This document shows, in pieces, positions 19,207-40,807 of a stretch of 64,000 nt of DNA. Source of the DNA: Streptomyces sp. SID14436. GTDB taxonomy: Bacteria; Actinomycetota; Actinomycetes; Streptomycetales; Streptomycetaceae. Both the position numbers and the translations under genes were made by a program. Positions within the stretch are counted from its first letter, which is position 1, and each line of letters begins with the position of its first letter. Location: assembly GCF_010548465.1 (NCBI RefSeq), contig NZ_JAAGMD010000791.1, forward strand, positions 1 to 64,000. Reading direction: 5' to 3'. The notes below the pieces were generated by a model, which saw only the letters and a program-made list of their open reading frames with translations, was not told the DNA's origin and ran no database searches.

Positions 19207-21017
19207 GCCGGCCGCTCGCGCAGCGAGTCGAGCCCGTAACGGGCGGCGACGTCGATGCCTTCGCCGTAATGATGCTCTTCGAGAAGCGGCAGGATCTTCG
19301 TGCGCCAGGTCCGCTCGAGGCCACCGTCGCGGTACACGCCCGGCTTCATCAGGTACGAGGGACCGATGGCGAAGTCCGCTTCGTCGATACGGGAGTTGAG
19401 AGCGTCGAGGAGACGGGCCGGCTCCCCATCGCGGCCTTGTCGTTCGAGCCAGCGTCCGAGCAGCCCGGAGGTCGGCTCGGTGCGCGGGGACAGCTCGACG
19501 AACGCGAATCGGCGCCGCATGGCCGCGTCGACCAGCGCGATCGACCGGTCGGCGGTGTTCATCGTGCCGATCACGAAGAGGTTGGGCGGCAGCGGGAAGT
19601 CGTCCCCGGAGTAGGTGAGCCGCACCGACCGGTCCCGGTACTCCAGCAGGAAGTACAACTCCCCGAACACCTTGGCCAGGTTGGCGCGGTTGATCTCGTC
19701 GATGATCAGGAAATGCGGGACATGCCGGTTGCCCTCGCGTGAGGCGAGGTCGGCGAGCTCCCGCAGCGGGCCGGCGGTCAGCCGGAACGCCACCTCCCGT
19801 GTCTCGGGGTCCTCCACCGGCCGGAACCCCTCGAAGAAGTCCTCGTAGGCGTACGACGGATGGAACTGCACGATCTTGACCTGCTCCGGGCCGCCGCCGA
19901 AGTGCTCGGCCAGCTTCATCGCCAGGTACGTCTTGCCGGTGCCCGGCGGACCGTAGAAGACCAGCTGCTTCTCGTCGAGCAGGAGCTCGCGCAGCTCCTC
20001 CAGCCACGCCCGGTCGTGGACCAGGAGATCGTCGGCGAGCGTGTCGCTGATCTCGGGCAGGGTCAGTTCCTTCGGCACCGGCCGCTCAAGGGTCTGCACG
20101 ACCTCGGGCTCGTCCGTACCGCCCGCCTCACCGGCCAGCCCGTCCAGAGCGTCCAGGACGCCGGTCAGATCGACCACGTCGTGCTGAACGGACAACTTCT
20201 GCCGCAGTTCACCGGGCAGTTCGTCGTACGCGTGACTGTCCGCCTGCCAGGTGACCGGCCGTCGCAGGTTGGACAGCCCGCCCGGCGACGAGGCCTGCAC
20301 GGCGTCCCCGGTGATCCGGCCGAGGTACAGCCGGTCGTCGTCATAGGTGGCCACGGTGTCCCCGACCCGCATCTGTGTCAGGAACGCGTGCAACTCGTCC
20401 ACCAGGCCCTGCTTCTGGTGGTACGAGGCCGCCCCCTCGTAGCCCTCCTCGACGAAGCGGCGCAGCGCGCTCTTGGTCGGGTCGGACTCCTCCAGCGGCG
20501 GCAGGTGCGCGCCGGACAGCGACACGAACCCTTCCTTCAGCCACTGCTGCCGCACCAGATTGTGACCCGAGACGTTCGAGCCGCGCACCAGCCACGCCTT
20601 GTGCGGGGGGCGCCAGCCGGTGGACTGGTAGTCGGAGAGCGGGTGGCCCTCGTCGGTGCGCCAGGACTCCGGGCCGGAGGCGTCGTAGCCGTACACCAGC
20701 GCGGCGGCGGCCGACGAGGAGTTGCACTCGATGTCCCGCGTCACCACCCAGCGCGCGGGCGCGTCCGGTGGTCGACCCGGGGCGGCCGGGGCGTCCACGA
20801 GTGCGCCGTCCGCGCGGAGTTCCGCCCGGAACCGGCGCGCGTGGCGGCCGAGCCCCGGCCACTCCTCTGCGGTCACGAGAGATCCCTCGCGCAGCAGGAA
20901 CTTGTTCGTCCCGTTGCCGCCGAACCGCGTCAGCAGGTACCCGCGCGCCTCGGCACCGTCCTGCGGCAGCTTGATGCGGAAGTCGGGCGTGCCGGGGAGG
21001 CGGTCGGGCTGCGGCAT
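19203..21017 (-). CDS. mcrB: McrB-like GTPase with non-standard N-terminal domains
   Basis: 604 aa. The C-terminal AAA+ module has Walker A GPPGTGKT (356-363), Walker B 'LIIDEINRANLAK' (437 onward) and the McrB hallmark 'GTMNTADRS' (484-492). The N-terminus is not the E. coli DUF3578 type. Residues about 12-118 look like DUF4357 ('YLLTRFGG...FLLREGS', 'RDIECNSSSAAAALVYGYDASG'), and 140-290 contains 'MRVGDTVATYDDDRLYLGRITG', reminiscent of EVE/PUA-like modified-base readers. Start ATG 21017 has GGAAGG at the right distance. First gene of the mcrB-mcrC-helicase operon. Confidence 0.88.
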   Translation of the reverse strand: MPQPDRLPGTPDFRIKLPQDGAEARGYLLTRFGGNGTNKFLLREGSLVTAEEWPGLGRHARRFRAELRADGALVDAPAAPGRPPDAPARWVVTRDIECNSSSAAAALVYGYDASGPESWRTDEGHPLSDYQSTGWRPPHKAWLVRGSNVSGHNLVRQQWLKEGFVSLSGAHLPPLEESDPTKSALRRFVEEGYEGAASYHQKQGLVDELHAFLTQMRVGDTVATYDDDRLYLGRITGDAVQASSPGGLSNLRRPVTWQADSHAYDELPGELRQKLSVQHDVVDLTGVLDALDGLAGEAGGTDEPEVVQTLERPVPKELTLPEISDTLADDLLVHDRAWLEELRELLLDEKQLVFYGPPGTGKTYLAMKLAEHFGGGPEQVKIVQFHPSYAYEDFFEGFRPVEDPETREVAFRLTAGPLRELADLASREGNRHVPHFLIIDEINRANLAKVFGELYFLLEYRDRSVRLTYSGDDFPLPPNLFVIGTMNTADRSIALVDAAMRRRFAFVELSPRTEPTSGLLGRWLERQGRDGEPARLLDALNSRIDEADFAIGPSYLMKPGVYRDGGLERTWRTKILPLLEEHHYGEGIDVAARYGLDSLRERPA

Positions 21018-21065: not shown

Positions 21066-21086
21066 CACGTTGACGCCGTCAACGTG
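21066..21086. promoter_or_regulatory. Perfect palindrome in the mcrB divergent promoter
   Basis: Arms CACGTTGACG (21066-21075) and CGTCAACGTG (21077-21086) are exact reverse complements around one central base. Each arm contains TTGACG, a good -35 hexamer, one per strand. It lies 49 bp upstream of mcrB and 143 bp upstream of the rightward gene, so one regulator could control both. Confidence 0.7.
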
Positions 21087-25355: not shown

Positions 25356-25465
25356 ACACGAAGAGTGGACGGTACGTCTGATGATCCGCCAGTCTTGGGG
25401 TGGACGCGGGCGGCGGAAGAGACGGCCGTCGCGGTGCGGTGCGGAGGCAAGGAAAGGGGCGGCGG

Positions 25466-26368
25466 ATGGACGTGGTCGGGGTCGAGGGGGAGGCGGCGGC
25501 CGGGAGCGCCGGCGGTGTGCGGGCGGTTCCGGCGGGGCCGGTGGGGGAGTGCGAGCGGGAGCCGCATCCGTCGGACAGCCTGCGGACGTTCGGGGCCGTC
25601 GTCCAGGCGCTGCGCGAGCACGCGGGGCTGAGCCGGGCCGACCTGGGCGTGAGGGTCCAGTACTCGAAACACACGGTCGAGTCGGTGGAGTTGGGACGCC
25701 GGATGCCGGACGAGGCGTTCGTGGAGCGCGCGGAGGAGGCGCTGGGCAACACGGGTGCGCTGCGGAAGGCCGCGCGGCATCTGACGCGGGGGGAGGCGGG
25801 GCTGGCGGCGTGGTTCCGGCGGTGGGCTCGGCTGGAGCGGGAGGCGGTGAGTCTGTGCACGTATGAGTGCCGGTTGGTGCCGGGGTTGTTGCAGTCGGAG
25901 GGGTATGCGCGGGCGGTGTTCGACAACAGCATCCCGTTGCTGCCCGACGAGCAGACGGAGGCGCAGGTCACGGCCCGAATGGAACGACAGGCGATGATGA
26001 GGGAGCGGCCGACCGTGCCGTTCGGCTTCATCGTGGAGGAGTCGGTGTTCCGGCGCGGGCTGGGTGGGGCGGAGGCGCAGGTGAGCATGCTGGAACATGT
26101 GCTTGAGCTGACTGCGCCGCGCAACGTGACGCTGCAAGTGGTGCCGGTGGAGCTGGAGTTCCACGGATGCCTGGACGGGCCCATGCGGATCCTGGAAACC
26201 CCGGAGGGGCGGCGGCTCGGGTACTCCGAAGGACAGCAGAACGGACGGCTGATCTCCGACGCGAAAGAGATGAGTCTGCTCTGCCGACGCTATGACACAC
26301 TGCGCTCGCAGGCCCTCAACCCTAAAGATTCCCGGGACCTGCTGGAGCGACTTCGAGGAGAGCTATGA
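25466..26368 (+). CDS. XRE-family regulator with DUF5753-like effector domain
   Basis: 300 aa from ATG 25466. An N-terminal helix-turn-helix lies around residues 40-80 ('LREHAGLSRADLGVRVQYSKHTVESVELGRR'). The C-terminal part has the DUF5753 pattern: 'YECRLVPGLLQSEGYARAVF', 'FIVEESVFRR', 'MLEHVLELTAPRNVTLQVVP'. It is translationally coupled (ATGA) to the DUF397 gene downstream. Members of this family control development or secondary metabolism in Streptomyces; the direct target here is probably its own promoter and that of the HATPase. Confidence 0.87.
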   Translation: MDVVGVEGEAAAGSAGGVRAVPAGPVGECEREPHPSDSLRTFGAVVQALREHAGLSRADLGVRVQYSKHTVESVELGRRMPDEAFVERAEEALGNTGALRKAARHLTRGEAGLAAWFRRWARLEREAVSLCTYECRLVPGLLQSEGYARAVFDNSIPLLPDEQTEAQVTARMERQAMMRERPTVPFGFIVEESVFRRGLGGAEAQVSMLEHVLELTAPRNVTLQVVPVELEFHGCLDGPMRILETPEGRRLGYSEGQQNGRLISDAKEMSLLCRRYDTLRSQALNPKDSRDLLERLRGEL

Positions 26369-26601: not shown

Positions 26602-27162
26602 TCACCGCGTCTCGTTCGTGGGGCCGTACCCGAGGGCCGCGCGGTTGATGAAACGGTCACCGAGGTCGCGCACGGGCGCGGGCTTCGGTTGCTTGGCAGC
26701 GCTCTTCGCCGTGGGCTTCTTCGGGGCTGGCTTCTTGCCGCCCGCACGCTTGGTCGCTGTTGCCTTTGCCTGCTTGGCTTTCTTCGCGGCCGGCGTGTTG
26801 CGCGCGGCGAACCTCTTGCGGGCCGCTGAGAGCCTCTCGCGTTCTGCAACGGCTACGTTGGTGGGAAGAGCCTCGGCGAGAACGCGGGCCCGGCTGAGCG
26901 CGTAGCGCGCCGCACTCCAGTTCTTTCTGTTGATGGCCATGTTCGCCAGGCTGATGGCCTGCTGCAAGGCTCTGATCTTCGCGGGCTGCTTCCGAGGTAT
27001 CTCGGACTCGGCACCGCTGCTGCGCTTCTGCCCGGCGGCTCGGGTACGCCAATCCGTACCTGAGCTCAGAACGACGACCGACCGAGGGTTGCTGCTCTGG
27101 TTCACGCGTACCACGTGCGTTGTTCCTTGGGTGAGCGGTGGGGCAGGCCCTGGGGTGGCCAC
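26602..27162 (-). CDS. Basic Lys/Ala/Pro-rich protein at the end of the defence operon
   Basis: 186 aa. The N-terminal part has 'GTTHVVRVNQSSNPRSVVVLSSG'-like sequence and a helical segment ('KIRALQQAISLANMAINRKNWSAARYALSRARVLAE', residues 62-97). The C-terminal third is a histone-H1-like low-complexity tail of KKAK/KPAPKKPTAKSA repeats, suggesting non-specific nucleic acid binding. It begins 25 bp after the methyltransferase stop on the same strand, so it is likely the last gene of that operon. A shorter start inside the first 20 codons is possible. Function unknown. Confidence 0.7.
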   Translation of the reverse strand: MATPGPAPPLTQGTTHVVRVNQSSNPRSVVVLSSGTDWRTRAAGQKRSSGAESEIPRKQPAKIRALQQAISLANMAINRKNWSAARYALSRARVLAEALPTNVAVAERERLSAARKRFAARNTPAAKKAKQAKATATKRAGGKKPAPKKPTAKSAAKQPKPAPVRDLGDRFINRAALGYGPTNETR

Positions 27163-27187
27163 CAGGCGGGGCCACCCCAGGGGCAGG

Positions 27188-30100
27188 TCAGTCGTGACGA
27201 GGACCCTGACCGGGAGGCGGGGTGAGGGTGGAACGGTAGGTACCGGACTCGCCCTCGGTAAGCGGGTTCTCCAGGGTCAGGCCGGCGGCGGCCATGCGGT
27301 CGTACTCGGCGAGGATCAGGTTCTTGGTGCGGTACTCGCCGTGGGCCTTCATGTCGTTGTCACGGACGACGTTGAAGGTGTCCAGAATGTAGGCGGTGTC
27401 GTCGCGGTCGATGCCGTAGAGGTGGAAGAAGAGAGCGTCCAGTTCGGCGCGGATCACGGCACGGCGGTCCTCGTCCCAGCGGAAGGGGGCGCCCGTGTCG
27501 CCAAGGTCGCGTGCGAAGGGTGCCATGTCGTGGGCGGTGTAGATCAATTCGAGGAGGCGAGGAGTGATTGCGTGCGAGTGCGGAGTCAGCTGCTCAGGGT
27601 GCAGGAATGGGAGCTGTTCGAATTGGAAGAAGTTGAGGTTGGTTCCACCGAGCTTCTGCCGAAGCACGTAGTCCAGAGCGAGTGCAGTGCTGTTGCCGTA
27701 GAAGAGCCAAGGTTGCTCGGTCCTGCTAGGCATTAGAATATTACCGGAGTCGCCAAGTCCGCGCTTCGGAAACGCGAAGGTGATGGCGGTCCGTTCATTT
27801 GTACCGTGACAGATTTTACGGAATCCCATCAGCCAGTCGTGGTGCCAATCCTTGGCAGCCAGGAGACTGTCTACACCTGGAATTTTAACTTCTTCGCCGT
27901 TCTTGTCGAACTTACCTGTCGCTGTGTCATCCGCTGGGACCCAATACCGAGGCATCGGGGCGGCTGAGGGGTCTTGATGTTGTTCGACAGTGAAGCGAGG
28001 CAGAGTGCCCAAAGCGAGCTGCTTCTCCGTCGCGCCTTCGTAGGTGGAGAAGCGGTGATCGTAATAATGGAGCATCTTCGCCTCGTAAAGCGGTAGGAGG
28101 CGCGCCTCTCCCCGCACCAGGACGTTGCCCTCCAGGTGCCAGCCGTCTCTGAGAAGGTCGTCGAAGGTTTCGCCTTGCTCGGCGGAAGGGCGAAATAGGT
28201 GAGAGTCGCTGGTCATGTTGAATAGACCTTGGATGAAGCTGATGCCCCACGGATTCCCGGCGCTCTTTTTAGTCTCGTCTACAAGGACGGGGATGCGGCG
28301 GTAGATGTCAAGGGTGACTTCTGCATCTCGGCGGGAGCGGAAAATAGGGCATGTGCCGGTATTAGGGTTCAGGAGTTGAATTTCGCGACCGGTCAAGGTG
28401 TAGGAGCGTTCAGCGATCTGAGAGACTTGACGGACGCGAAAAGCGATTGTGATCGGAGTTTCAGGAGATCCGGACCCAATCATGCAGAATAGGGCGAAGT
28501 TCACAGCATGGTGAACGCCAGGGAAAAGCTTCTCCTCGTTTTCGAAGCCGTAAAGTGCTGCCAACTGGCCCTTCGTTACCAGATCCTTGAAGAAAAACTG
28601 AGTTGTTGCATCCGTCGCGATCCCGGTCGGAACGATGACTCCGACGCGGCCACGTGGCGAACCGAGGCGACGGTCTTGTTCTGTGAAGATGGTGTCAGTT
28701 TTGATGCGCCCTCGACCGCACAGAGGGTAGAGCCCGGACGCGCTAGCGAAGTGCCGGGTGCCATCGATCTCTCGCTTGGCTTCCTGGTACATGCTGTAGA
28801 GGTCCGGGTCGTTGGCTACGAGTCGTTGGATAAGGCTCTTGCGCCGGGCACCCGCAGATTTGGCGATCTCCGGAGACCGAGCGGCGAAGAACTCTTGCTC
28901 CTTCAGTTCTAGATGTTCCCACGGCGGATTCCCCACCACCGCGTCGAACCCTCCAGTCCACCCCGTCCCCGGCTGGACGCCCGCCCCCGACTCCGGAACC
29001 GCGAACACCTCCGGAAATTCCAGGTGCCAGTGGAAGAACCGATACTGATCCCGCAGGTTCATGATCTCGGCATGCGTGGCGTCCGGCACGGCCGACTGGT
29101 CGCGCCCCCGCAGCGCGCGGAATACCTGGTCTGTCGGCGCCTCCGGAGCCCCGTCCCACTTGGGCCACACGAACGCGGCGCACCACGCATCCGCAGCATG
29201 CAGATCCTGGACGTACGTCGTGGACTCGACGTAGGCCCGATACGCCGACTCCTGCGCCCGCACCTGCTCCAGAGAGTCTGCCGGTGCCGTAGTGATCCGG
29301 GCCAACTCGGCAGCGTACTGGTCGTTGCCGGGCAAGACGTCCGTGTCGAAGGTCAGCTCGTCCTGGCCTGCGCGCTGGGTCCTGTTCCGCTTGACCAGCC
29401 AAGCCGCGTATTTCTTGCCGTCCCCCTCGATCGGCTTGAACGCGTCGTCCGGAACACCTTCCGCCAGCAGCTTCGGCGTAGCCCCGATCAGCCCGTTGCC
29501 GTGCTTGACGTGGGCGTCGAGGAATCCAAGCGGCTTACCCGGCTCCAGCGCCTCCAGCCACAGCGAGACCTTCGCCAGCTCCACGGCCATAGGGTTGAGG
29601 TCCACGCCGTAGATGCAGCGCGCGACGACCTCGTGCAGCGCATGCCGCACCGCGTCGACCGTCGGCTCCGGGTTGCGCTCCCGCACCGACGCAACCCGCT
29701 TGGCGATACGCCGAGCTGAAGCGACGAGGAAGTGCCCAGACCCACAAGCCGGGTCGCAGACCGTCAGGGACAGCAGCTCGTCGACGATGTCGTCGGCCGG
29801 GTCAGGACGGCCGGCCTCCGCGGCCCGCTGCTCGCCCCGCTTCACGGCGTCGTCTATGACCGGATCCAGCGTCGTGTCCAACAGGCACTCGATCAGCGAC
29901 GACGGCGTGTAGTAACTGCCCGTCGTCTTCCGGCTGTTGCCCGCGACCTCGATCAACTCGAAGGACCGGTCCGTAGCCGAGTGCTTCGGCTCGAGCTCCA
30001 GCAGCGACTCGTAGACCGAGCCCAACTCCTCCGCGTCCAAATGCCGGTAGTCCACCGAACGCCACCGCCGCGCACCCGAGTCCCGCACCTGCGCCAGATG

Positions 30101-31303
30101 CCGCACGGCAGCCAGCAGCGACTCGTTGGACAGCTTCAGCCCGTCCAGCGGCGCGTCGGCCTCCGTGTGCGTGAACAGACCGCCGAGACCGGGCAGCCCC
30201 AGCTCCGGACGGCCCCCTTCCTTCCCCAGCGCGTCAAGAACGATCCGCAGCGCCTCGTACTGGTCACCGTGCGCCGTTCCCTGCCGCCGCCGGGCCCGCT
30301 CCCGCAGCCGCGCCGACGAGAAGTACCGCTCGTACGCCTCCCGTTGCCGCTCACTGGCGTTCGGGTCGAGCAGGGCGTCCCGGTCCTCGGCCACAAACAC
30401 GAACAGCAGCCGGTACACCAGCCGCAGCAACGCATCCCGCAGCGCCTTCGGGTCCACGTCCTCCCGCAACCGCACGTTCTCCGGATGCCGCAGGAACCCG
30501 GTCCCGAGCACGGTCAGCGCGTTCTGCACGCCCAGCCGCAGCTGGTCCAGGGCACGCGCCCCCGACGTGACGGCCTCCGTACGCCACTTCTCCAGCCAGC
30601 ACCCGGCCGGCGCCGCCCCCTCCTGCACCGCGAACCGCGAAGCATGCAGCACGCAGTACAGCAGCACGAACTCGCTGAACAGCTCCCCGTCGAAGATCGC
30701 CTCAAGGTCGAACTCGACGTAGGCCGCCGTCGCGAAGGACGACGAGTCGCGCAGCAGCCGCAGCCGGCGCCCGTTCGTGAGCACCGCCCACAGGTGGGCC
30801 TCGGTGCGGTTCAGGCAGTCCTGGAGCATCGACTGCGCCGGGACCTGACCGGCCGCCGGACGCTTGTCCAACTCCTGGTTCCACGGCACCAGATGCACCA
30901 GCGCCGGACCATGCCGGTGCGACACCGGGAACCGCTTCTCGGCATCCGAGTCGGCCGGGATGCCCCCCGCCCCGACCTCCGTCAGCGCACCGAAGTCCAG
31001 CTTGCGGAACAACTGGGCGAGCCAGTCGGAGCCCGCCCGGCCCGTCGGGTCGGCGGACGGCGCGCCCGTGACCGGGTCCGAGGGCAGCGCGGCGCGCAGC
31101 TCGCGCCACAGCGGCTTGAGGTATTCCCAGGCGCGCTCGGCCTCGTCCCGGACGGGGACGGAGGCGGGCAGGCCGTAGTCGGCGGGCTTGGTGCCCGGCA
31201 GGTTCCGCGCCTCGGCGATGCGCAGCAGCATGTCGGCGGGGAGCAGACCGCCGACCGTGGTGACGGCGGTGAAGGCCAGGGCGGTGCGGGTGGCGGCGGA
31301 CAT
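27188..31303 (-). CDS. N6-adenine DNA methyltransferase, DrmMI/PglX-like
   Basis: 1371 aa. The SAM-binding motif is 'DPACGSGHFL' (517-526), with 'GVDLNPMAVELAKVSLW' following, and catalytic motif IV is 'GNPPWEHLE' (791-799), the gamma-class N6-adenine type. About 450 N-terminal residues precede the fold and a target-recognition part follows it. From just after motif IV to about residue 1235 (nt 28915-27600) the DNA is clearly less GC-rich than on either side. Its start shares a base with the helicase stop (TGATG). In DISARM and BREX such enzymes mark host DNA. It could also be a type IIG-like enzyme, but I see no nuclease motif. Confidence 0.87.
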   Translation of the reverse strand: MSAATRTALAFTAVTTVGGLLPADMLLRIAEARNLPGTKPADYGLPASVPVRDEAERAWEYLKPLWRELRAALPSDPVTGAPSADPTGRAGSDWLAQLFRKLDFGALTEVGAGGIPADSDAEKRFPVSHRHGPALVHLVPWNQELDKRPAAGQVPAQSMLQDCLNRTEAHLWAVLTNGRRLRLLRDSSSFATAAYVEFDLEAIFDGELFSEFVLLYCVLHASRFAVQEGAAPAGCWLEKWRTEAVTSGARALDQLRLGVQNALTVLGTGFLRHPENVRLREDVDPKALRDALLRLVYRLLFVFVAEDRDALLDPNASERQREAYERYFSSARLRERARRRQGTAHGDQYEALRIVLDALGKEGGRPELGLPGLGGLFTHTEADAPLDGLKLSNESLLAAVRHLAQVRDSGARRWRSVDYRHLDAEELGSVYESLLELEPKHSATDRSFELIEVAGNSRKTTGSYYTPSSLIECLLDTTLDPVIDDAVKRGEQRAAEAGRPDPADDIVDELLSLTVCDPACGSGHFLVASARRIAKRVASVRERNPEPTVDAVRHALHEVVARCIYGVDLNPMAVELAKVSLWLEALEPGKPLGFLDAHVKHGNGLIGATPKLLAEGVPDDAFKPIEGDGKKYAAWLVKRNRTQRAGQDELTFDTDVLPGNDQYAAELARITTAPADSLEQVRAQESAYRAYVESTTYVQDLHAADAWCAAFVWPKWDGAPEAPTDQVFRALRGRDQSAVPDATHAEIMNLRDQYRFFHWHLEFPEVFAVPESGAGVQPGTGWTGGFDAVVGNPPWEHLELKEQEFFAARSPEIAKSAGARRKSLIQRLVANDPDLYSMYQEAKREIDGTRHFASASGLYPLCGRGRIKTDTIFTEQDRRLGSPRGRVGVIVPTGIATDATTQFFFKDLVTKGQLAALYGFENEEKLFPGVHHAVNFALFCMIGSGSPETPITIAFRVRQVSQIAERSYTLTGREIQLLNPNTGTCPIFRSRRDAEVTLDIYRRIPVLVDETKKSAGNPWGISFIQGLFNMTSDSHLFRPSAEQGETFDDLLRDGWHLEGNVLVRGEARLLPLYEAKMLHYYDHRFSTYEGATEKQLALGTLPRFTVEQHQDPSAAPMPRYWVPADDTATGKFDKNGEEVKIPGVDSLLAAKDWHHDWLMGFRKICHGTNERTAITFAFPKRGLGDSGNILMPSRTEQPWLFYGNSTALALDYVLRQKLGGTNLNFFQFEQLPFLHPEQLTPHSHAITPRLLELIYTAHDMAPFARDLGDTGAPFRWDEDRRAVIRAELDALFFHLYGIDRDDTAYILDTFNVVRDNDMKAHGEYRTKNLILAEYDRMAAAGLTLENPLTEGESGTYRSTLTPPPGQGPRHD

Positions 31304-34248
31304 CAGGCTTCGGCTCCGGACACGGTAGAGGCGGCGGGGGCGGCGGGCGGCACGTAGACGTACACGCCGAGGACGTCGGCGGGCTCCTGCGGGATCACCT
31401 TCAGGCCGCGGACGATCTCTTCGTTGGCCTTGCGCACCCGGCGGTGCGAGGCGTCGAGTTCGGCGGCCAGGCGGGTGCCGTACTCGGTGAGGTGGTCGGC
31501 GAGGCCGGGCAGGCCCTCCAGCGCGCGGGTGATGGACCTGCGGGCGGCCAGCTCGTGGGTGTTGGCGGTGGCGCGCGCGCCGAGCAGCGCGGCGGCCGCG
31601 TCGTCGTCCAGCCAGCGGGCGCGCTGCGGCAGACCCTCGTAGGCCAGCAGCCGCGCGTCCTCGGCGACCACCTGCCGCTCACCCGAACGGGACGGCAGGG
31701 TGAGGTGGAAGCGGTAGCGGACCAGCAGCAGCGTCGTGCGGACGCTCACCGCGTCCGTCGTCACCACACCGCAGCGGCGGGCCGGACGCGGACCCAGCGC
31801 CTTCGCGTCCAGCGCCGAGTCCAGGACGTACGAGGCGACGGCCCCGATCGCCGGGTCGGTGCGGACGAGGGCGGCCTCGCCGCGGCCGATCGCCGGCGTG
31901 GTGCGGAACGGGATCTCGCGGTCCTCCTCGACCAGCCGGTTGCCCAGCGTGGCCGCGAGCGCGTCCCGCAGCCCGGCCGGGGTGCCGCCGACCTGCGCGG
32001 TGAAGTCACCGCTGCCGTCCCGCGGATCGCGCACGAGCGCGTCCAGGTCGCGCAGCGCCTCCAGCGTGAACTCGCGCACCTCCTCCGCGCCGCCGAGCGC
32101 GGCCCGTACGGCGGCGACCTCGCGGGCCACCTCCTCCGGGTGGATGGCCCGCTGCGCGTACTTGGAACGGGAGGTCTTCTCCCGGTCGGCCGCCGACGTC
32201 CACTCCCGCTCGATGCGGTCGAAGGACTCCTGGTGGGCGTCCATCTCGAACAGGCTCTCCTGGCTGCCCTGCCGCCCGTGCAGCAGCAGCCACTCCACCA
32301 CGGCGTCCGTGACGCCGCTCGCGGTTTCGTCCGGGACGGAGACGGAGATGCCGAGGTCCTTCTTGATCTGGCGGTGCTTCTTGAACAGCACCTCCAGGAC
32401 CTTGCCGTCGATGCCGTTGTCCTCGCCGTACATCGTGATGACGCGGACCTGGTCGCGCTTCTGCCCGTACCGGTCGACGCGGCCCTCGCGCTGGTCGTGA
32501 CGGGTCGGGTTCCACGCCAGGTCGTAGTGGACGACGGCGTCGAAGTGGTGCTGGAGGTTGACGCCCTCGGAGAGGCAGTCGGTGGCGATCAGCACGCGCC
32601 GCACGGACGGGTCGCCGCCCTCCTCGGCGGCGAGCTGCTCGATCCGCTCCAGGCGCTGCTGCGGGGAGAGCGTGCCGGTCACGGCGGCGATCCTCGTCCT
32701 CTTGCCGAGCTTGCCGTCCAGCTGCTGGGCGAGGTAGTCGGCCGTGGGGATGTAGCGGCAGAAGACGATCGGGTTGTAGCCCTGCCCGATCAGGTCCTTC
32801 AGGTGCTTGGTCAGCGCCTTCAGCTTGGCGTCCCCCGCCGGGCCCATCAACTCCTCGGCGCGTCCGGCGAGTTCGAGAAGGCGGGCGCCCGCGTCCTCCG
32901 ACTCGGCGGCGCCGGGCGCGACGTCCATGCCCTCGTGCCGGTCGTTCTCGGCGGAGTCGGCGGCCACCGGGGCGCCCAGCACGTCCGCCTCGTGCGCGGT
33001 GCGGGCGGTGGCCGACTCGGAGCGGGTCTTCAGGGTCTGGGCGGCGGCGGCCGGGGACGACACCATGGAACGCAACAGGGCGATCACCGACCACCAGGCG
33101 ATGCGGGCCTCCCGCTTGCCCTGCTCGCCGGCCGCCGAGACGCGGTCCGCGGCGTAGGCGATCGCGTCGTCGAGGAGCGCCCGGTAGGCGGGCGTCAGCT
33201 TGTACGGCTCGTCCTTCGTCCAGCGGTCGGACGGGAACGCGGTCCGCTCCGCCAGGGAGTCGTCGGCGAGGCCGTCCTCCTTGGTGAGGTAGTCGCGGAC
33301 GTCGGCGCGCTTGCGGGCCACGAAGTGCTCGGCGAGCTTCGCCCGTCCCGCCGGCGTCTCCAGGTCCAGCGTCGCCAGCTCGGGCCGCACCAGGCCGAGC
33401 AGGTTGCGGAACGCGGACTCCTTGCCGGAGTGCGGGGTCGCCGTCAGCAGCAGCAGATGGCGGTCGGCGTCGGCGGACACCTTCCGCAGCAGCTCGTGGC
33501 GGAGCTGGTTCGTCGCGGAGGACGCGCCGCCCTGCGCGGGGTCGTCGGCGGCCACACAGGTGTGCGCCTCGTCGACGATCACCAGGTCGGGGCAGTGCTT
33601 GACGAAGTCCTCACGGTGACGGGTCGACTTGATGAAGTCCGTCGAGATGATCGTGAACGGATGCCGGTCGAACAGCGACTGGCCCAGCTCCAGGTTCCGC
33701 TCCAGACGCGACACCGTGGACGCCAGCACCAGCTCCGCGTCGATGCCGAACTTCTCCCGCAGCTCGCCCTGCCACTGCTCGGCCAGCGCGGGGGAGCACA
33801 GCACCGCCAGCCGGGTCGCCTCGCCCTGCGCCAGCAGCTCCTTGGCGATCAGCCCCGCCTCGACGGTCTTGCCGATACCGACGTCGTCCGAGATCAGCAG
33901 CCGTACCGTGCGCTGCCGCAGCGCCATCAGCAGCGGCACCAGCTGGTAGGCGCGGGGCTCGACGGCGATCGACGCCAGCGAGCGGAACGGGCCCGCGCCC
34001 GACCGGAAGCCGATGCGCAGCGCCGTGCGCAGCAGACCGGCGGCACGCTGGTCGCCCAGGTCGTCCGGGCTCGGCGCGGCGAACTCGGCGGGGCGCACCT
34101 CCTCGAACGAGGGGAAGACGGCCGCGATGTCGTCCTCGCTCCCGCCCAGCGGGCGCAGCACCAGCATGTCGGGGGCGCTCTCGGGCAGCACCACCCATTC
34201 CCGGCCACGGGCCGCGACCAGCGAGCCGGCTGTGTACGTGAGGCTCAT
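31303..34248 (-). CDS. SNF2-type helicase, DrmD-like
   Basis: 981 aa SF2/SNF2 ATPase. Walker A 'DDVGIGKT' (121-128), DEAH box (226-229), 'LLLTATPHSGKE', and the C-terminal helicase lobe with 'ATDCLSEGVNLQ' and 'NPTRHDQREGRVDRYGQ'. The pairing with a large adenine methyltransferase directly downstream is the drmD-drmMI arrangement of class 1 DISARM. The C-terminal 300 residues have no motif I recognise. It lies 57 bp after the kinase-helicase gene, so all belong to one transcript. Confidence 0.87.
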   Translation of the reverse strand: MSLTYTAGSLVAARGREWVVLPESAPDMLVLRPLGGSEDDIAAVFPSFEEVRPAEFAAPSPDDLGDQRAAGLLRTALRIGFRSGAGPFRSLASIAVEPRAYQLVPLLMALRQRTVRLLISDDVGIGKTVEAGLIAKELLAQGEATRLAVLCSPALAEQWQGELREKFGIDAELVLASTVSRLERNLELGQSLFDRHPFTIISTDFIKSTRHREDFVKHCPDLVIVDEAHTCVAADDPAQGGASSATNQLRHELLRKVSADADRHLLLLTATPHSGKESAFRNLLGLVRPELATLDLETPAGRAKLAEHFVARKRADVRDYLTKEDGLADDSLAERTAFPSDRWTKDEPYKLTPAYRALLDDAIAYAADRVSAAGEQGKREARIAWWSVIALLRSMVSSPAAAAQTLKTRSESATARTAHEADVLGAPVAADSAENDRHEGMDVAPGAAESEDAGARLLELAGRAEELMGPAGDAKLKALTKHLKDLIGQGYNPIVFCRYIPTADYLAQQLDGKLGKRTRIAAVTGTLSPQQRLERIEQLAAEEGGDPSVRRVLIATDCLSEGVNLQHHFDAVVHYDLAWNPTRHDQREGRVDRYGQKRDQVRVITMYGEDNGIDGKVLEVLFKKHRQIKKDLGISVSVPDETASGVTDAVVEWLLLHGRQGSQESLFEMDAHQESFDRIEREWTSAADREKTSRSKYAQRAIHPEEVAREVAAVRAALGGAEEVREFTLEALRDLDALVRDPRDGSGDFTAQVGGTPAGLRDALAATLGNRLVEEDREIPFRTTPAIGRGEAALVRTDPAIGAVASYVLDSALDAKALGPRPARRCGVVTTDAVSVRTTLLLVRYRFHLTLPSRSGERQVVAEDARLLAYEGLPQRARWLDDDAAAALLGARATANTHELAARRSITRALEGLPGLADHLTEYGTRLAAELDASHRRVRKANEEIVRGLKVIPQEPADVLGVYVYVPPAAPAASTVSGAEA

Positions 34249-34305
34249 GGGATGTCTCAGTTCCTCGGGTCGATACGTCGGGAGGTCGTCAGGGGCGCGG
34301 GACGG

Positions 34306-37300
34306 TCAGCGCAGATGGAAGTAGGCGGCATGGTGCTCGACGACGGCGTCCCAGTCCGCGTCCGCAGGGAAGCGCAGCACGTCCCAGCCCGCCTCCTCCA
34401 GGCGGTAACCGGCCTCCACGTCACGGGAGGAGTCGGCCGGCCGGTCCGGAGTGTCGACGAACACGGCGAGATGGACGTCGTCCAGGTAGAACACCAGGTC
34501 GGGCCGGGCCGCCGCTCCGTCGACGAACACGTCGGCCGCGTCCGGCAGCCGGTAGCCCTTCGCCTTCAGCCAGCCGACCAGATCGCCCTGCGCGACGAGC
34601 GCCGCCAGGTCCGTCTCCAGCGGCGTCGGCACGGACACGGGGGAGGCCCCGGCAGTGGCGGGAGCGTCCGCGTCCGCCGCCGTGCTGCCGCCCGTGCCGG
34701 CAGCCGCCGCCGGCACGAGCCTGCGGAACACCTCGCTGCGCGACTCGCCCCGGTCCTCCCGCTCGGTGCGGGCGCCCGCCAGGCGCAGCAGCAGCGGACG
34801 GGCGGTGTGCCGGCTCAACTGCCGGTGGTGGCCCTGGTTGGCGTACGTCAGTAGGCAGGTGTAGCAGCCGCGCGCGCACTTCTCGTGCTCGGAAGGACCG
34901 CCCAGGTCCTCGCCCGTGTCCGGGTCGAAGTGGCAGATCTCCAGTGCCGTCCGGGCGGCCTGCGCGAGCGCGTCCTTCTCGTGCTGGATACGGCGCAGCA
35001 CGCCCGCGCCGCCCTCCGCGGCCTCCGTGAACAGCATGCGGCGGCGCGGCCCGTCGTCCGGCGGCAGCAGCTCCGCCGTCAGCTCGGAGTCCTCCAGCTC
35101 GAACGCCGCCTCGATGCCCCGCTCCAGCGCGTACAGGAACGACAGCGCCACCGGCTCCGGCTGCGGCTCGTCCAGCGTCACCACCAGGATGTTCCGGCGG
35201 TCCTGCACGTACGGCAGCACCCGCTTCTTGCGGCGCTTCTCGTTGCCGTCCTCGTCGACCACCGGCATGCCGGTGCCCTCGATGGCGTCCGCGGCGGCCC
35301 GGTCGTTCAGCCAGCGGCCGTCGCCCAGGTCCAGCCAGTAGCCGTCCGGCTCGCCCTCCTTGTCGCGGACCCGGCCCAGGTTGGTGATGCGGACGGTCGC
35401 CGAGTCGCCGTAGTCCAGATCGAGGACCGGCGAGCCGTCCCCGTCGCTCACGTGCGAGGAGAGACGGCCCTTGCGGGCGCCGTGGTCCTGGAACGCGTAC
35501 GACGTCTCCAGACGGAAACCGGCCCTGCGCCGCTCCTCCTCGTCCGAGGAGATCCGCTCGCGCGGGGTGGTGTACACGGTGTGCAGCTGGAGCAGGCCCG
35601 TGCGCTTGCCGCGCAGCGGCTCCCCGCACATCGCGCACAGGTCGGAACCGGCCCTGACATCGTGGTGGTAGCCGCAGCCGTCACAGCGGCGGGCTTCTGC
35701 CGTCGCCAGGTCGCCCGAGGCGTCCGGCGGCAGCTGCACCCGGGTCACCTGGTAGCGGGCGCCCTCGTGGTAGATGAGCGCGCCGGGGCCGAACTCGCGG
35801 ATCGCGAGGAAGCGGGGCCGCTGCAGGTAGTCGCCGTCGGCGTTGCGGCGGTTGCCGGACCGCGGGATGTACGCGGCCAGCGGCAGCCTCGGGAAGCTGT
35901 AGCCGGGCAGGAACCCCTCGGACGCCAGGTAACGGTACGGGTTGAAGTCGCTCATCACCGACTTGCTGTCGGTGGAGCGGTTCAGCAGCAGGTTCGTCTG
36001 CGTCTCCGCCTCCCGGCGGCGGGTGCGCGCCCGGCTCTGCTCACCGGGGGAGAGGGTGTGGTCGACGACCCGCTTGTTCTGCTCGTACTGGTCGATGACG
36101 GCCGCCCGGAACAGGTCCCGCCACCGGTCGAACGCCGCGTCGAACTTCGCCGGGGCGCGCTCGATCCGGTCCTCGATCCACTCGTCGTACCACCAGGTCG
36201 TCGCCTCGAAGTCGGCGATCAGCGGGGCGAGGACCGTACGGGCCGCGACGACCGCACGGCGGCGGGCGCCCTCGTCCAGGGACAGGTCGCGGATCCTGTC
36301 GACCAGCGGCAGCGGCATCTGCGGGTCGGGGCGGTCGTCGCCGTCCGGGTCGTAGGCGACGTCGATGACGTGCGGGATCGCGGCGCCCAGCTCCATCCCC
36401 GTCTCCGCCAGCCAGATGCCCTGGAGGTGCGAGCGGACCAGGTCCTCGTTGGCGAGATCCAGGCGCGGCGGGGCCACCTGCCCCGACACCATGTCCCGGG
36501 AAAAGCGGAAGTAGTACTGGTCGTGGCTGTTGCCCGTCGCGCAGTACGTGGTCACCAGCGCGGGCTGGCCGGAGCGGCCCGCGCGTCCCGAGCGCTGCGC
36601 GTAGTTCGCCGGAGTCGGCGGCACGTTGCGCATCATCACCGCGTTGAGCGAGGCGATGTCCACGCCCAGCTCCATCGTCGGCGAGCAGTACAGCAACGGC
36701 AGTTCGGCGTCACGGAACTGCCGCTCGCGCTCCAGCCGGTCCTCCGGCGTGACCTGCGCGGTGTGCTCCCGCGCGAACAGGCCGGCCAGCTCGGACGCCG
36801 CCGTGCGGTACAGGTCGCGGAAGAACGGGTTGACGCGCGGTCCCTCGCCGCTGCTGTAGGTGCGCGCCAACGGGTCGACGGCGCCCCGCTCACCGTCACC
36901 GGCCCGCCAGATCAGCGCGGCGGCCGCCACCCGGTAGCCGAGGCGCTTCTCCGACGCGCGGCGGCGGAAGGCCGGCCCCGAACGCTCGGGAACCGCCTCC
37001 ACCTCACGCACGAGCTCGGCGTCCCGCAGCACCTTCAACAGGTCCTCGATGACGCACTGCACGTCCTCCAGCGAGGCGGACGCCTCACGGAGCGCGGGCA
37101 GGTTCCGCCGCAGGTACTTGCCGAACTTGCCGCGCGCCGACAGGAACAGCGCCGACCGCTCCATGCCGGGCCGCGAACCGTACGGGTAGGCGGTGCCGAC
37201 GGTCGGCTGGTCCGAGTCGCTCAACACCCACGGGCCGGTCAGGCGTTCCTCGCTCGCCCGCTGCAAGGTGTCGAAGTCGTCGCGGAAGTACTGCACGTCG

Positions 37301-40300
37301 ATGGCGAGTTCACGCCGCATGTAGTCGAGCAGCGTGCGGCCGATCTCCTCGCGCAGCGCCGGGTCCGCGTCGCGCAGCACCGCGTGCGCGGACTGCCATC
37401 GGTCCGGCTGGGCGGCCACCCACTCCAGGTCCTCGTAGTCGATCCGCAGCAGACCCGTCTGCTCCAGGTTCGGCATCGTGATGCGCCAGCCGCGCTCCAG
37501 GTCGCGGTAGAGGCGATACCCGACGACGTCCCGGAACACCTTCGCCGCCCGCTTCTCCATGGACGGAGGCAGGTTGGTGCCCGACGCGTAGTCGCGAGGC
37601 GTCAGGCCCATCACCTCGGTGACGGCCTCGGCGAGGTCGTCGTGGCGCAGCCCGTCCTCACCCGCCCGCACAGCCGCCTGGTACAGCGCGCCGCGCAACT
37701 GCGTCACCTGGGCGAAGTCGTTGAAGTGCCCTGCCTGCAGGGACGCGTCCTGCCGGTTGTCGACGAAGGTGAGGAGCTTGCGCGCCTCCTTGCCCAGGCT
37801 GTCCTCGGGCACCGCCCGCAGGGACTTCACGATGGACGCGGAGATCAGCGAGGTCGCGGACGAACGCCCCTCCTGGTCCAGGGTGGCCAGCTTGGCGAAG
37901 TCCCGGCCGCGCGTCTGCTCGTAACTGACCTGGCAGTGCACGCAGAAGAGGAACGGCGCCGGCACGAACGCCGCCACCAGGCCCTCACCGGACTCGTTGC
38001 CGTGGGCGTCCACGACAACCCGCTTCGGCAGACGGGGGCGGTAGGACTTCTTGACGGTCATCCCGCCGTTCGCGTCCGGCTCCAGCCACGACTCCGGCAG
38101 CCGGCGGTCGTCCACGGCCTTCTGCGGATCGGCCGGCCACTCGTAGTCCTGCCCCGGCATGCCCAGATACAGGTAGCCCTCGCCCTCGCGGCCCCCGGAG
38201 GCGGAGGTGTCCCGGCGCGGCTCGTACCGGAAGGCGCCGCCGTCCTCGCTGCGCCAGACCGTCAGGTACTCCTGACCGCACTCACGGCAGAAAGCCAGCG
38301 GGAACAGCGGCTTGCCGCCGCTGTCCGGCTGCTCCAGCTGATAGGTGCGGGTCAGCGGCCGGGTGAGCGGATCCTCCAGCGTCGTGTAGACGGTGTCGCC
38401 CTTGGACAGGAACTGGTGCAGCCGGAACGCGAACAGCGGCCGTTCCGTCACCGGGTGCTTGGCCTGCGCGCCCGCCTCCAGCGTCGTCCGGATCGCCTCG
38501 CGCACCGTCTCCTCGGCGACACCGGACACCGAGGACAGCTCCGCCGCCGCCTCCTCGACGGTGGCCGGGGGGCGGCGGCGCAGCCGGCCGGTGCCCTCCT
38601 CCCGCTCCAGACCGAACCGCGACTCCACCCAGCGCGCCAGAGGGTCCTTCGTCAGCGCCTCGTACGACCGGGGCGCCGAAGGCACCCGCAGCCGCTCGGC
38701 GGGCACGGACTCCGGCGCCTCGTCGGTCGCCCGCACCAGGGTCTCGCCGATGACCCGCTCCGGCAGCACCGTCGTGCCGAACAGCCGCCTGGCGACCTTG
38801 GCGACCTCGCGCCGCTGGTCGTCCCAGGTGCCCTCGGTCGACATGGTCGCCGAGGTGCCGATGCACTGGAGGGACTCCGACGCCCGGCAGGCCTCACGGA
38901 CCCGGCGGATCAGGAACGCCACGTCGGCGCCCTGCCGGCCCCGGTAGGTGTGCAGCTCGTCGAAGACGAGGAACTGAAGTCCCTCCGCCATGCGGATCAG
39001 GCTGTCCCGGTCGTCCGGCCGGGTCAGCATCAGCTCCAGCATCACGTAGTTGGTCAGCAGGATGTCCGGCGGGTTCTTGCGCAGCTCACGGCGCTCCTCG
39101 CTGGACTCCTGGCCGGTGTAACGGGCGAAGGTGACCGGCTCGCGGCCCTTCCCGAAACCGTGGCGCAGGTACTTCTCCAGCTCCCCGAGCTGCGAGTTGG
39201 CCAGCGCGTTCATCGGATAGACGACGATCGCCCGCACCCGGCGCTCGGCGCTGGGTCCCGCAGCCTCACGCTCCTTCAGGACGCGGTCGACGATCGGCAC
39301 GATGTACGACAGCGACTTGCCGGAGCCGGTGCCGGTGGTCAGCACGTAGGAGTCGCCCGCCTGCGCGGCCTCGATCGCCTGGCGCTGGTGGAGGTGGAAG
39401 GTCAGCGGCCGTCCGTCCGGACGCGACGAGGTCTCCCTCTTGCCCGCCTGGAAGATCTCCGCGCACCTCGGGTGCAGGACGCCGTCCCGCACCAGGTCGG
39501 TGACCTGGCCGCCGTCGGCGAAGAACGGGTTCAGCGACAGCCACGGGTCGGGCCACTGCGACTTCGCCCGCAGATCGTCGGCGACGAAGCCCTCGATGCG
39601 CGCGTCCCGGATCACCGTGCCGCTCTTGGTGAAGCTCTCGTACTCGGTGATCAGGTCGGCGTGGATGCCGAAGACGTCCATCGCCTCCGGCAGACGCGGC
39701 TGCCTGCGCGGCGCGGGCGCGGGTACGGCGGGGACCCGCTCGGGAAGCAGGGCGCGCAGCCGCGCCACCGGGTCGGACTCCTGCCAGTGCGGAGCGAGCA
39801 GGGCAGCCGTCGGGTCCTGGGAGAGCGCGAGCGGGACCAGCACCTCGCGGACCGACGCGCCGTTCTCCGGCCGGTGTTCGGCGTCCTTCTCCAGCAGACG
39901 CTCCACCAGCCGGACCAGACCGGCGGGCAGATCCGGACGCACCAGCGTCAGCTGGGGCGGCAGCTCCCGCAGATGCTGCTCGGAGATCTCGTAGTGGGTC
40001 CGGCCGGAGAACGGCGGACGGCCGATGAGCAGTTCGTACAGGATGCAGCCGAGTGCGTAGAGGTCGGCGGAGGCGGAGACCTGCTCGGCGCGGAACTGCT
40101 CGGGCGCCATGTAGCGGGCCGTGCCGAGGCTGACGCCCGTGCTGGTCAGGCGCGTCTGGTCGGGGTCGTCGACGATCGAGCCCATCCCGAAGTCGAGGAC
40201 CTTGACGGTGCCGTCACCGGTCAGCATCACGTTGGCCGGCTTCAGGTCGCGGTGGACGACCCCGGCGGTGTGCGCGGCGGTGAGCCCGGACGCGATCTGC

Positions 40301-40701
40301 GCGCCGATGGCGGCGACCCAGGAGACCGGCAGCTGGGGTTCCTCGTCGATGAGGTCGGCGAGCGGACTGCCGTCGAGCAGCTCCATCGCCAGGTACGGCA
40401 GTCCGCCGCCGTCCGCGGTGTCGTCCACGCCGCCGTCGATCAGGAGCGTGAGGTTCGGGTGCCCCTGCGAGAGCATGCGCATGATGCGCACCTCGCGGCG
40501 GAAGCGCGCGGTCTCCTTGCCGGACCCCGAGGCGTCGATCGCGCCCCCGGTCCGGCTGCGCAGCAGGGTCTTGACGGCGACCTGCCGGTGCGGGGAGTCC
40601 GGGGCGGCCTTCAGGTCCTCGGCCCGGTGCACCTCGCCCATGTTCCCGCGCCCGACGACGCCTGTGATGCGGAAACGTCCGCCGACTGTCCCCAACCCCA
40701 C
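34306..40701 (-). CDS. Ser/Thr kinase-DEAD helicase-DUF1998-type-Vsr-like fusion
   Basis: 2131 aa from GTG 40701 behind GGGGAGGGG. Residues 1-290 are a complete Hanks-type kinase: GRGNMG loop (17-22), VAVK with Lys44, HRDLKPAN (150-157), DFG (170-172), APE (199-201). Residues 435-1450 are an SF2 helicase: TTGTGSGKS (455-463), DELH (581-584), SATM (617-620), later 'TMELGVDIASLN' and 'YAQRSGRAGRSG'. Then come a C4 zinc ribbon ('CDGCGYHH...CAMCGEPL'), the DUF1998-type 'CARGCYTCLLTYANQGHH', and a C-terminus ('RPDLVFYLDDVHLAVFVD', 'LEEAGWDVLRF') resembling Vsr/DUF559 nucleases. DISARM splits helicase and DUF1998 into DrmA and DrmB; here they are fused, with a kinase added. No transmembrane segment or PASTA repeats. 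Confidence 0.88.
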   Translation of the reverse strand: MGLGTVGGRFRITGVVGRGNMGEVHRAEDLKAAPDSPHRQVAVKTLLRSRTGGAIDASGSGKETARFRREVRIMRMLSQGHPNLTLLIDGGVDDTADGGGLPYLAMELLDGSPLADLIDEEPQLPVSWVAAIGAQIASGLTAAHTAGVVHRDLKPANVMLTGDGTVKVLDFGMGSIVDDPDQTRLTSTGVSLGTARYMAPEQFRAEQVSASADLYALGCILYELLIGRPPFSGRTHYEISEQHLRELPPQLTLVRPDLPAGLVRLVERLLEKDAEHRPENGASVREVLVPLALSQDPTAALLAPHWQESDPVARLRALLPERVPAVPAPAPRRQPRLPEAMDVFGIHADLITEYESFTKSGTVIRDARIEGFVADDLRAKSQWPDPWLSLNPFFADGGQVTDLVRDGVLHPRCAEIFQAGKRETSSRPDGRPLTFHLHQRQAIEAAQAGDSYVLTTGTGSGKSLSYIVPIVDRVLKEREAAGPSAERRVRAIVVYPMNALANSQLGELEKYLRHGFGKGREPVTFARYTGQESSEERRELRKNPPDILLTNYVMLELMLTRPDDRDSLIRMAEGLQFLVFDELHTYRGRQGADVAFLIRRVREACRASESLQCIGTSATMSTEGTWDDQRREVAKVARRLFGTTVLPERVIGETLVRATDEAPESVPAERLRVPSAPRSYEALTKDPLARWVESRFGLEREEGTGRLRRRPPATVEEAAAELSSVSGVAEETVREAIRTTLEAGAQAKHPVTERPLFAFRLHQFLSKGDTVYTTLEDPLTRPLTRTYQLEQPDSGGKPLFPLAFCRECGQEYLTVWRSEDGGAFRYEPRRDTSASGGREGEGYLYLGMPGQDYEWPADPQKAVDDRRLPESWLEPDANGGMTVKKSYRPRLPKRVVVDAHGNESGEGLVAAFVPAPFLFCVHCQVSYEQTRGRDFAKLATLDQEGRSSATSLISASIVKSLRAVPEDSLGKEARKLLTFVDNRQDASLQAGHFNDFAQVTQLRGALYQAAVRAGEDGLRHDDLAEAVTEVMGLTPRDYASGTNLPPSMEKRAAKVFRDVVGYRLYRDLERGWRITMPNLEQTGLLRIDYEDLEWVAAQPDRWQSAHAVLRDADPALREEIGRTLLDYMRRELAIDVQYFRDDFDTLQRASEERLTGPWVLSDSDQPTVGTAYPYGSRPGMERSALFLSARGKFGKYLRRNLPALREASASLEDVQCVIEDLLKVLRDAELVREVEAVPERSGPAFRRRASEKRLGYRVAAAALIWRAGDGERGAVDPLARTYSSGEGPRVNPFFRDLYRTAASELAGLFAREHTAQVTPEDRLERERQFRDAELPLLYCSPTMELGVDIASLNAVMMRNVPPTPANYAQRSGRAGRSGQPALVTTYCATGNSHDQYYFRFSRDMVSGQVAPPRLDLANEDLVRSHLQGIWLAETGMELGAAIPHVIDVAYDPDGDDRPDPQMPLPLVDRIRDLSLDEGARRRAVVAARTVLAPLIADFEATTWWYDEWIEDRIERAPAKFDAAFDRWRDLFRAAVIDQYEQNKRVVDHTLSPGEQSRARTRRREAETQTNLLLNRSTDSKSVMSDFNPYRYLASEGFLPGYSFPRLPLAAYIPRSGNRRNADGDYLQRPRFLAIREFGPGALIYHEGARYQVTRVQLPPDASGDLATAEARRCDGCGYHHDVRAGSDLCAMCGEPLRGKRTGLLQLHTVYTTPRERISSDEEERRRAGFRLETSYAFQDHGARKGRLSSHVSDGDGSPVLDLDYGDSATVRITNLGRVRDKEGEPDGYWLDLGDGRWLNDRAAADAIEGTGMPVVDEDGNEKRRKKRVLPYVQDRRNILVVTLDEPQPEPVALSFLYALERGIEAAFELEDSELTAELLPPDDGPRRRMLFTEAAEGGAGVLRRIQHEKDALAQAARTALEICHFDPDTGEDLGGPSEHEKCARGCYTCLLTYANQGHHRQLSRHTARPLLLRLAGARTEREDRGESRSEVFRRLVPAAAAGTGGSTAADADAPATAGASPVSVPTPLETDLAALVAQGDLVGWLKAKGYRLPDAADVFVDGAAARPDLVFYLDDVHLAVFVDTPDRPADSSRDVEAGYRLEEAGWDVLRFPADADWDAVVEHHAAYFHLR

Positions 40702-40777
40702 TTACCCCTCCCCATTCACCCGTTTTGTACGCGGTGGATGCGTCCCGCAAGGGAGCGTATACCGTCCCGGTTGAAGA

Positions 40778-40807
40778 GGATTATGCAATCTGTTTACGTT
40801 GTCAACG
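40778..40807 (-). promoter_or_regulatory. Promoter of the defence operon
   Basis: Minus-strand TTGACA (40805-40800) with TAATCC (40783-40778) 16 nt on, in an unusually AT-rich stretch. An 11-bp palindrome CGTTG-T-CAACG (40797-40807) overlaps the -35 box and shares its half-site with the palindrome upstream of mcrB. Confidence 0.55.

Follow-up and report, generated by a model that had tools for sequence, protein, structure and literature searches.

The stretch of DNA considered here (the window, 64,000 nucleotides from Streptomyces sp. SID14436, contig NZ_JAAGMD010000791.1, positions 1 to 64,000) carries a leftward operon of four genes, headed by a 2131-amino-acid protein in which a serine/threonine kinase is fused to a YprA-family helicase. 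From its sequence, we identify this operon as an ARMADA Type I system with a kinase-bearing YprA helicase, and its relatives make a role in defence likely. All four open reading frames of the single leftward unit described by the original prediction were recovered at their positions, and they and their main parts are as follows (window coordinates).

34306 to 40701, reverse strand: kinase-YprA helicase, the ARMADA Type I YprA homologue with an N-terminal Ser/Thr kinase, 2131 amino acids (open reading frame)
39802 to 40701, reverse strand: PknB-like Ser/Thr kinase domain, amino acids 1-300 (Pfam and conservation)
39679 to 39681, reverse strand: codon M341, the fusion junction, at which the start codons of kinase-less ARMADA I helicases align
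38839 to 39390, reverse strand: DEAD/RecA1 domain, amino acids 438-621 (Walker A TGTGSGKS and DELH kept in all complete homologues)
34852 to 35133, reverse strand: MZB/DUF1998 zinc-binding domain, amino acids 1857-1950 (Pfam)
34309 to 34614, reverse strand: Vsr-like domain, amino acids 2030-2131, active-site signature eroded to VDTPDR (alignment and model)
31303 to 34248, reverse strand: RapA/BrxHII-like SNF2 helicase, 981 amino acids (Pfam SNF2 and Helicase_C)
27188 to 31303, reverse strand: PglX/DrmMI-like N6-adenine methyltransferase, 1371 amino acids (Pfam Eco57I and N6_Mtase)
27404 to 30586, reverse strand: recombining methyltransferase cassette, amino acids ~240-1300, its target-recognition part (~780-1300) low in guanine and cytosine (GC)
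26602 to 27162, reverse strand: basic protein, 186 amino acids, optional fourth gene (open reading frame)

A Pfam search of the 2131-amino-acid protein found the kinase (residues 13-279), DEAD (438-621), Helicase_C (1310-1378) and MZB (formerly DUF1998; 1857-1950) domains, and its Vsr-like end was modelled, so the domain order proposed earlier, in one operon with an SNF2 helicase and an N6-adenine methyltransferase, was borne out. CxxC pairs lie at residues 805, 920, 1673 and 1689, with C805, C808, C920 and C923 invariant. The SNF2 helicase retains its VGIGKT and DEAH motifs, and the methyltransferase, the gene of which overlaps the stop of the SNF2 gene, retains motif I (DPACGSGHF) and NPPW; no relative of the methyltransferase was found in the PDB at 1e-3. 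The basic protein is lysine/alanine-rich and has no family match in Pfam, and since its gene is repeatedly found directly behind the methyltransferase (in about 20 of the 50 kinase-bearing loci), it is a real gene.

The order of the genes, i.e., a YprA helicase, then a RapA/BrxHII-like helicase and then a PglX-like methyltransferase, matches that of ARMADA Type I as named in a 2025 preprint (Bell et al., PMC12458937), and the traits of Type I are present as well, namely MZB/DUF1998 on the helicase polypeptide, internal CxxC zinc modules and a C-terminal Vsr-like domain; membership was assigned from the order of the genes, the domains they encode and profile scores rather than by comparison with reference ARMADA sequences. 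A single polypeptide is the usual state of YprA helicases with an MZB domain (PMC12458937). ARMADA Type II of E. coli (NCTC 12900) shares the three core protein types in a different gene order, and has been found by experiment to act against phages in a non-abortive manner that requires both helicases and the NPPW motif (PMC12458937). Without the kinase, the architecture already has a name, ARMADA Type I; the term 'kinase' is absent from the main text of PMC12458937. The N-terminal Ser/Thr kinase, the eroded Vsr signature, the optional basic protein and an operator common to a McrBC-RelE/UvrD operon (below) thus appear, at the level of sequence, to be additions to the published description of Type I. 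In the region after RecA1 where a BrxA-like insertion would be expected (amino acids 622-1060), the model was poor (predicted template modelling score 0.45) and a fold search gave no meaningful match.

Nearly all sufficiently long loci among 72 named loci, which were found via the SNF2 protein with a Streptomyces query and are hence biased toward close relatives, keep the helicase, SNF2 and methyltransferase genes in the same order. That is, far from never occurring together with the other two proteins, homologues of the large helicase keep this company across several phyla (Actinomycetota, Thermodesulfobacteriota, Planctomycetota, Chloroflexota and others), and the operon is also carried by plasmids in Deinococcus radiodurans MP1 and Nocardioides (pNOCA01). 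In the Deinococcus copy (L128), the methyltransferase is annotated as two adjacent genes, with an insertion sequence element alongside.

The helicase is closest, among PADLOC families, to DruE of Druantia, with 340 bits compared to 47 bits for DISARM DrmA (a comparison of profiles, not a family-wide tree), and ARMADA helicases are also placed nearer to DruE than to DrmA in PMC12458937. The operon differs from Druantia in having no DruH, DruA-D or DruM/F/G, and in having SNF2 and N6 methyltransferase partners plus a kinase. The original prediction had instead taken it for a compact DISARM hybrid, in which DrmA and DrmB were merged, and its SNF2 helicase does resemble DrmD (282 bits) and its methyltransferase DrmMI (235 bits). 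However, the relation to DISARM class 1 extends to these two proteins only: the operon has no separate DrmA or DrmB, its helicase belongs to a different YprA clade, and real DrmA (670 bits) and DrmB (228 bits) are separate cargo genes in sister islands and also adjoin ARMADA I on pNOCA01. On the profile scores and these real DrmA/DrmB genes nearby we rejected the merger, which can hardly be credited. No DrmC phospholipase D protein was found among the genes searched between 15781 and 51930 of the window, with some small open reading frames outside the search. Like BREX type 2 (Pgl), the operon combines a kinase and a PglX-like methyltransferase within one Streptomyces defence operon, although here the kinase sits on the YprA helicase and not on PglW, and PglY and PglZ are missing from the operon; the match of the kinase-helicase to the NCBIfam PglW model (48.6 bits) is far below the cut-off of 990. 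Finally, the SNF2 protein matches a PADLOC model labelled DpdE (PDLC02853) at full length with 1654 bits, as would be expected of a 7-deazaguanine (Dpd) system. We rejected that identity since the protein reaches only 171 bits against the NCBIfam DpdE cut-off of 500; moreover, no dpdA, preQ0 or other Dpd gene was present among the neighbours examined (no genome-wide search was made), and the same SNF2 helicase accompanies YprA and the methyltransferase across phyla, leaving a Dpd system next to impossible. Automatic annotation based on PDLC02853 would therefore mislabel the ARMADA SNF2 helicase as DpdE.

Kinase-less homologues start at the residue aligned with M341, so the kinase and a linker were joined just before the old start; no conserved, well-spaced ribosome-binding site was seen for an internal start at M341. 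The kinase-bearing proteins form one fully supported (100%) actinobacterial branch on two helicase trees (quick searches, with support from the SH-aLRT, an approximate likelihood ratio test, only), on each of which the kinase label changes once (kinase in 50 of 69 and in 32 of 56 rows), and the nearest neighbours of this clade include kinase-less copies within Streptomyces (L131-L133). This pattern shows that the kinase was gained once, with no loss seen inside the clade. Residues K44, E70, D152, N157, D170, T186 and T194 are invariant in 51/51 kinase-bearing proteins, as is the activation segment (T186-S187 and T194). The kinase is a complete RD-type Hanks kinase, and among solved structures it is most closely related to PknB kinases. 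Over 14 close pairs, the kinase had a median ratio of nonsynonymous to synonymous substitution rates (dN/dS) of 0.12 and the helicase one of 0.13, compared to 0.29 in the Vsr-like domain and 0.23 to 0.45 in linkers; hence, the kinase is under selection as strong as that on the helicase.

The opposite end of the protein has fared differently. It models as a small PD-(D/E)xK-like domain (predicted local distance difference test score 79), and in a Foldseek search it came closest to VRR_NUC and to the Vsr-like catalytic domain of I-Bth0305I, at weak E-values of 0.02-0.2. Most homologues carry PDF and IDGPxH motifs, and the latter is intact in most kinase-less homologues and retained by the basal kinase-bearing proteins (L037, L040, L066, L138, L139); it is lost wholly or partly in all examined Streptomyces kinase-bearing proteins, the window having VDTPDR, with the Gly and His gone and the canonical glutamate displaced by an insertion. 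The loss is a derived one within the clade. Of the nuclease in cis that had been proposed, the Vsr-like fold is therefore supported by the model, whereas the degenerate catalytic signature makes its activity in Streptomyces doubtful.

The methyltransferase departs from the history of the rest of the operon. The METHYLTRANSFERASE gene is shuffled, that is, strains with helicases 95-97% identical to that of the window differ in the methyltransferase core and/or the target-recognition part. For instance, the S. viridochromogenes protein agrees closely with that of the window over the first 240 residues and the S. pseudogriseolus protein over the first 780, past which identity drops to 20-65%, and the last 50 residues are alike again. 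Across 39 operons, kinase and SNF2 distances follow those of the helicase (r 0.89 and 0.88, respectively), as opposed to r values of 0.01, -0.03 and 0.03 for the methyltransferase core and recognition region. There are two methyltransferase backbone types, which require 10 changes on the helicase tree, and the GC content of the recognition part is 52-62% in an operon of 72%. Judging from these patterns, DNA specificity is exchanged on a fixed effector chassis, which argues that the helicases take their target choice from the methyltransferase and points to the part of ARMADA that carries it.

The region upstream of the operon, and the genes downstream of it, contain the following additional features.

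40792 to 40806, reverse strand: operator-like palindrome GTTGACAACGTAAAC, 91-105 base pairs (bp) upstream of the kinase-helicase start codon
40754 to 40761, reverse strand: conserved TATACGCT block, possible -10 region (alignment of loci)
25400 to 26368, forward strand: helix-turn-helix (HTH)-DUF5753 regulator (WhiJ-like XRE), conserved between both operons
21069 to 21083, reverse strand: operator-like palindrome GTTGACGGCGTCAAC, the second copy, 52 bp ahead of McrB
19203 to 21017, reverse strand: McrB-like AAA_5 protein with DUF4357, 604 amino acids
17953 to 19206, reverse strand: McrC-like nuclease, 417 amino acids (PF10117, E 1.5e-51; VDAKYK motif present)
15781 to 17916, reverse strand: GajB-like UvrD helicase, 711 amino acids, with a RelE-like N-terminus (RelE part by eye)

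The operon had been placed behind one strong promoter, for which a sigma-70 scan gave no support (0 sites), although a conserved promoter-like stretch does emerge there when 20 loci are aligned, made up of the palindrome at 40792-40806 and TRTACGCT at 40754-40761. GTTGAC-N3-GTCAAC or a close form of it precedes the kinase-helicase gene by at most 220 bp (typically ~106 bp) in 42/50 kinase-bearing loci. With 0.16 strand matches expected in the window, a second copy was found before McrB, and each of the seven other islands on the branch of the window has the strict pattern (GTTKAC-N3-GTCAAC) a single time in the 20-35 kb scanned, before McrB. Genome-wide, it occurs in three genomes at exactly two places, the ARMADA I and McrB promoters, and the window's genome has one further site, before a gene for a 564-amino-acid HTH-N6-methyltransferase (G000 contig C701:15070; L146:4571). 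In six islands, homologues of this gene are preceded, at a distance of ~60 bp, by a site with 10-11 of 12 matches. The 374 kb of island sequence contain 26 sites that match in 11/12 positions or more, compared to 0-1 in simulated sequence, and 20 of the 26 lie within 150 bp of a gene start (simple GC-frame calls); the neighbouring islands are related, so these sites are not all independent events. Candidate binders are the HTH-N6-methyltransferase, which has its own site and an HTH domain, and the WhiJ-like protein; no published binding sites for XRE-DUF397 regulators were found in the literature looked at. The HTH-DUF5753 gene has a DUF397 partner on the opposite strand and stays downstream of ARMADA I in 37 loci.

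The second palindrome marks an operon that travels with the first. ARMADA I is patchy (24/150 Streptomyces genomes), and 20/24 genomes with ARMADA I encode the UvrD protein (at least 63% identity), compared to 3/126 genomes without ARMADA I (Fisher p 5e-18). Where checked, its gene lies ~5-40 kb downstream of ARMADA I on the same strand, with another contig or an inverted position in a few genomes, and the interval between the ARMADA I and McrBC operons holds the WhiJ-like regulator and variable cargo. The RelE label follows from our reading of the sequence and from its resemblance to a fusion reported for ArmD, as a Pfam search of the N-terminus gave no RelE match. In ARMADA Type II a RelE-GajB-like helicase is the fourth gene of the operon (PMC12458937), as opposed to a separate downstream operon with McrBC here, and McrBC often adjoins this operon type (PMC11090510); hence, the link between ARMADA and McrBC/RelE-UvrD is already known in outline.

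The architecture, the one-time gain of the kinase and the constraint on it, the shuffling of the methyltransferase, the Vsr erosion, the linkage and the common operator-like site, as they appear in the sequences, form the basis for the reading that we favor and consider fairly probable as a whole: a Type I anti-phage operon with methyl-mark discrimination, kinase gating of the helicase and a nuclease in trans. Under this reading, the methyltransferase would mark the DNA of the host, with its exchangeable target-recognition region dictating the site, and the SNF2/RapA and YprA helicases, probably complexed with the methyltransferase, would engage unmarked DNA and block its replication; the anti-phage function, the discrimination by methylation and the complex formation are suggested by the relatives of the operon. 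The kinase would gate the helicase via autophosphorylation or phosphorylation of a partner, the role we favor for it and regard as plausible. With the in-cis Vsr nuclease decayed in Streptomyces, any cleavage would probably be supplied in trans, the best candidate being the co-regulated McrC/RelE-UvrD operon. We found no description in the literature of phosphorylation-based on/off control in YprA-family anti-phage helicase systems, and since the kinase was fused once and is strongly selected, such control should be testable by a single point mutation of K44.

Several points weigh against this reading. Our literature search found no experiment on a Type I or kinase-fused system; kinase-less relatives are as widespread, and the kinase is therefore not needed for the basic function; and the operon has no recognised phosphatase. 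Further, three acidic residues (D84, D99 and D110 of alignment A1) are invariant in the eroded Vsr domain and, with these aspartates kept, some residual activity may persist. They are also, together with the PD-(D/E)xK-like model and a dN/dS that stays below 1, what speaks for a helicase-nuclease that still cuts DNA in cis, which we nonetheless think unlikely given the altered IDGPxH signature and a dN/dS that points to roughly double the evolutionary rate of the helicase.

The main rival makes the kinase the effector: the helicase/methyltransferase part would recognise phage DNA, and host or phage proteins would then be phosphorylated and growth stopped. Kinases act as effectors elsewhere in defence (PglW, Stk2), the kinase here is complete with an invariant activation segment, and the erosion of the Vsr nuclease set in only once the kinase had been acquired. 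However, the basal kinase-bearing proteins keep the kinase together with an intact Vsr motif, kinase-less relatives function without it and Type II ARMADA is non-abortive (PMC12458937), all of which make an effector kinase rather improbable compared to a gating one. The patchy presence, plasmid copies, specificity shuffling and defence neighbours of the operon argue, in turn, against epigenetic or DNA-repair machinery. Outside defence, MrfA/YprA works in DNA repair, and no phage test of Type I was found in the literature; nevertheless, we regard a function of this kind as very unlikely.

Beyond the favored reading, it is tempting to hypothesize an island of two layers, in which a single controller, perhaps the HTH-N6-methyltransferase, would bind GTTGAC-N3-GTCAAC and switch the kinase-bearing ARMADA I operon, McrBC-RelE/UvrD and some of the intervening cargo operons as one. 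The kinase-helicase chassis would be constant and the DNA specificity swappable, with the kinase relaying infection status to the helicase. We put this forward tentatively, as a possibility that we would not yet call probable; if true, two defence operons and perhaps some cargo would share a dedicated operator, a rare visible common switch for unrelated systems.

The cargo itself is diverse. In two sister islands (L113:6087-11110 and L117:7241-12149), the DISARM DrmA and DrmB genes lie, with an MzaA-like gene, between ARMADA I and McrBC, and another island has a second Hanks kinase among its cargo, along with a LmuB-like protein (L124:4177-6408 and L124:11093-13612), with operator-like sites near their starts.

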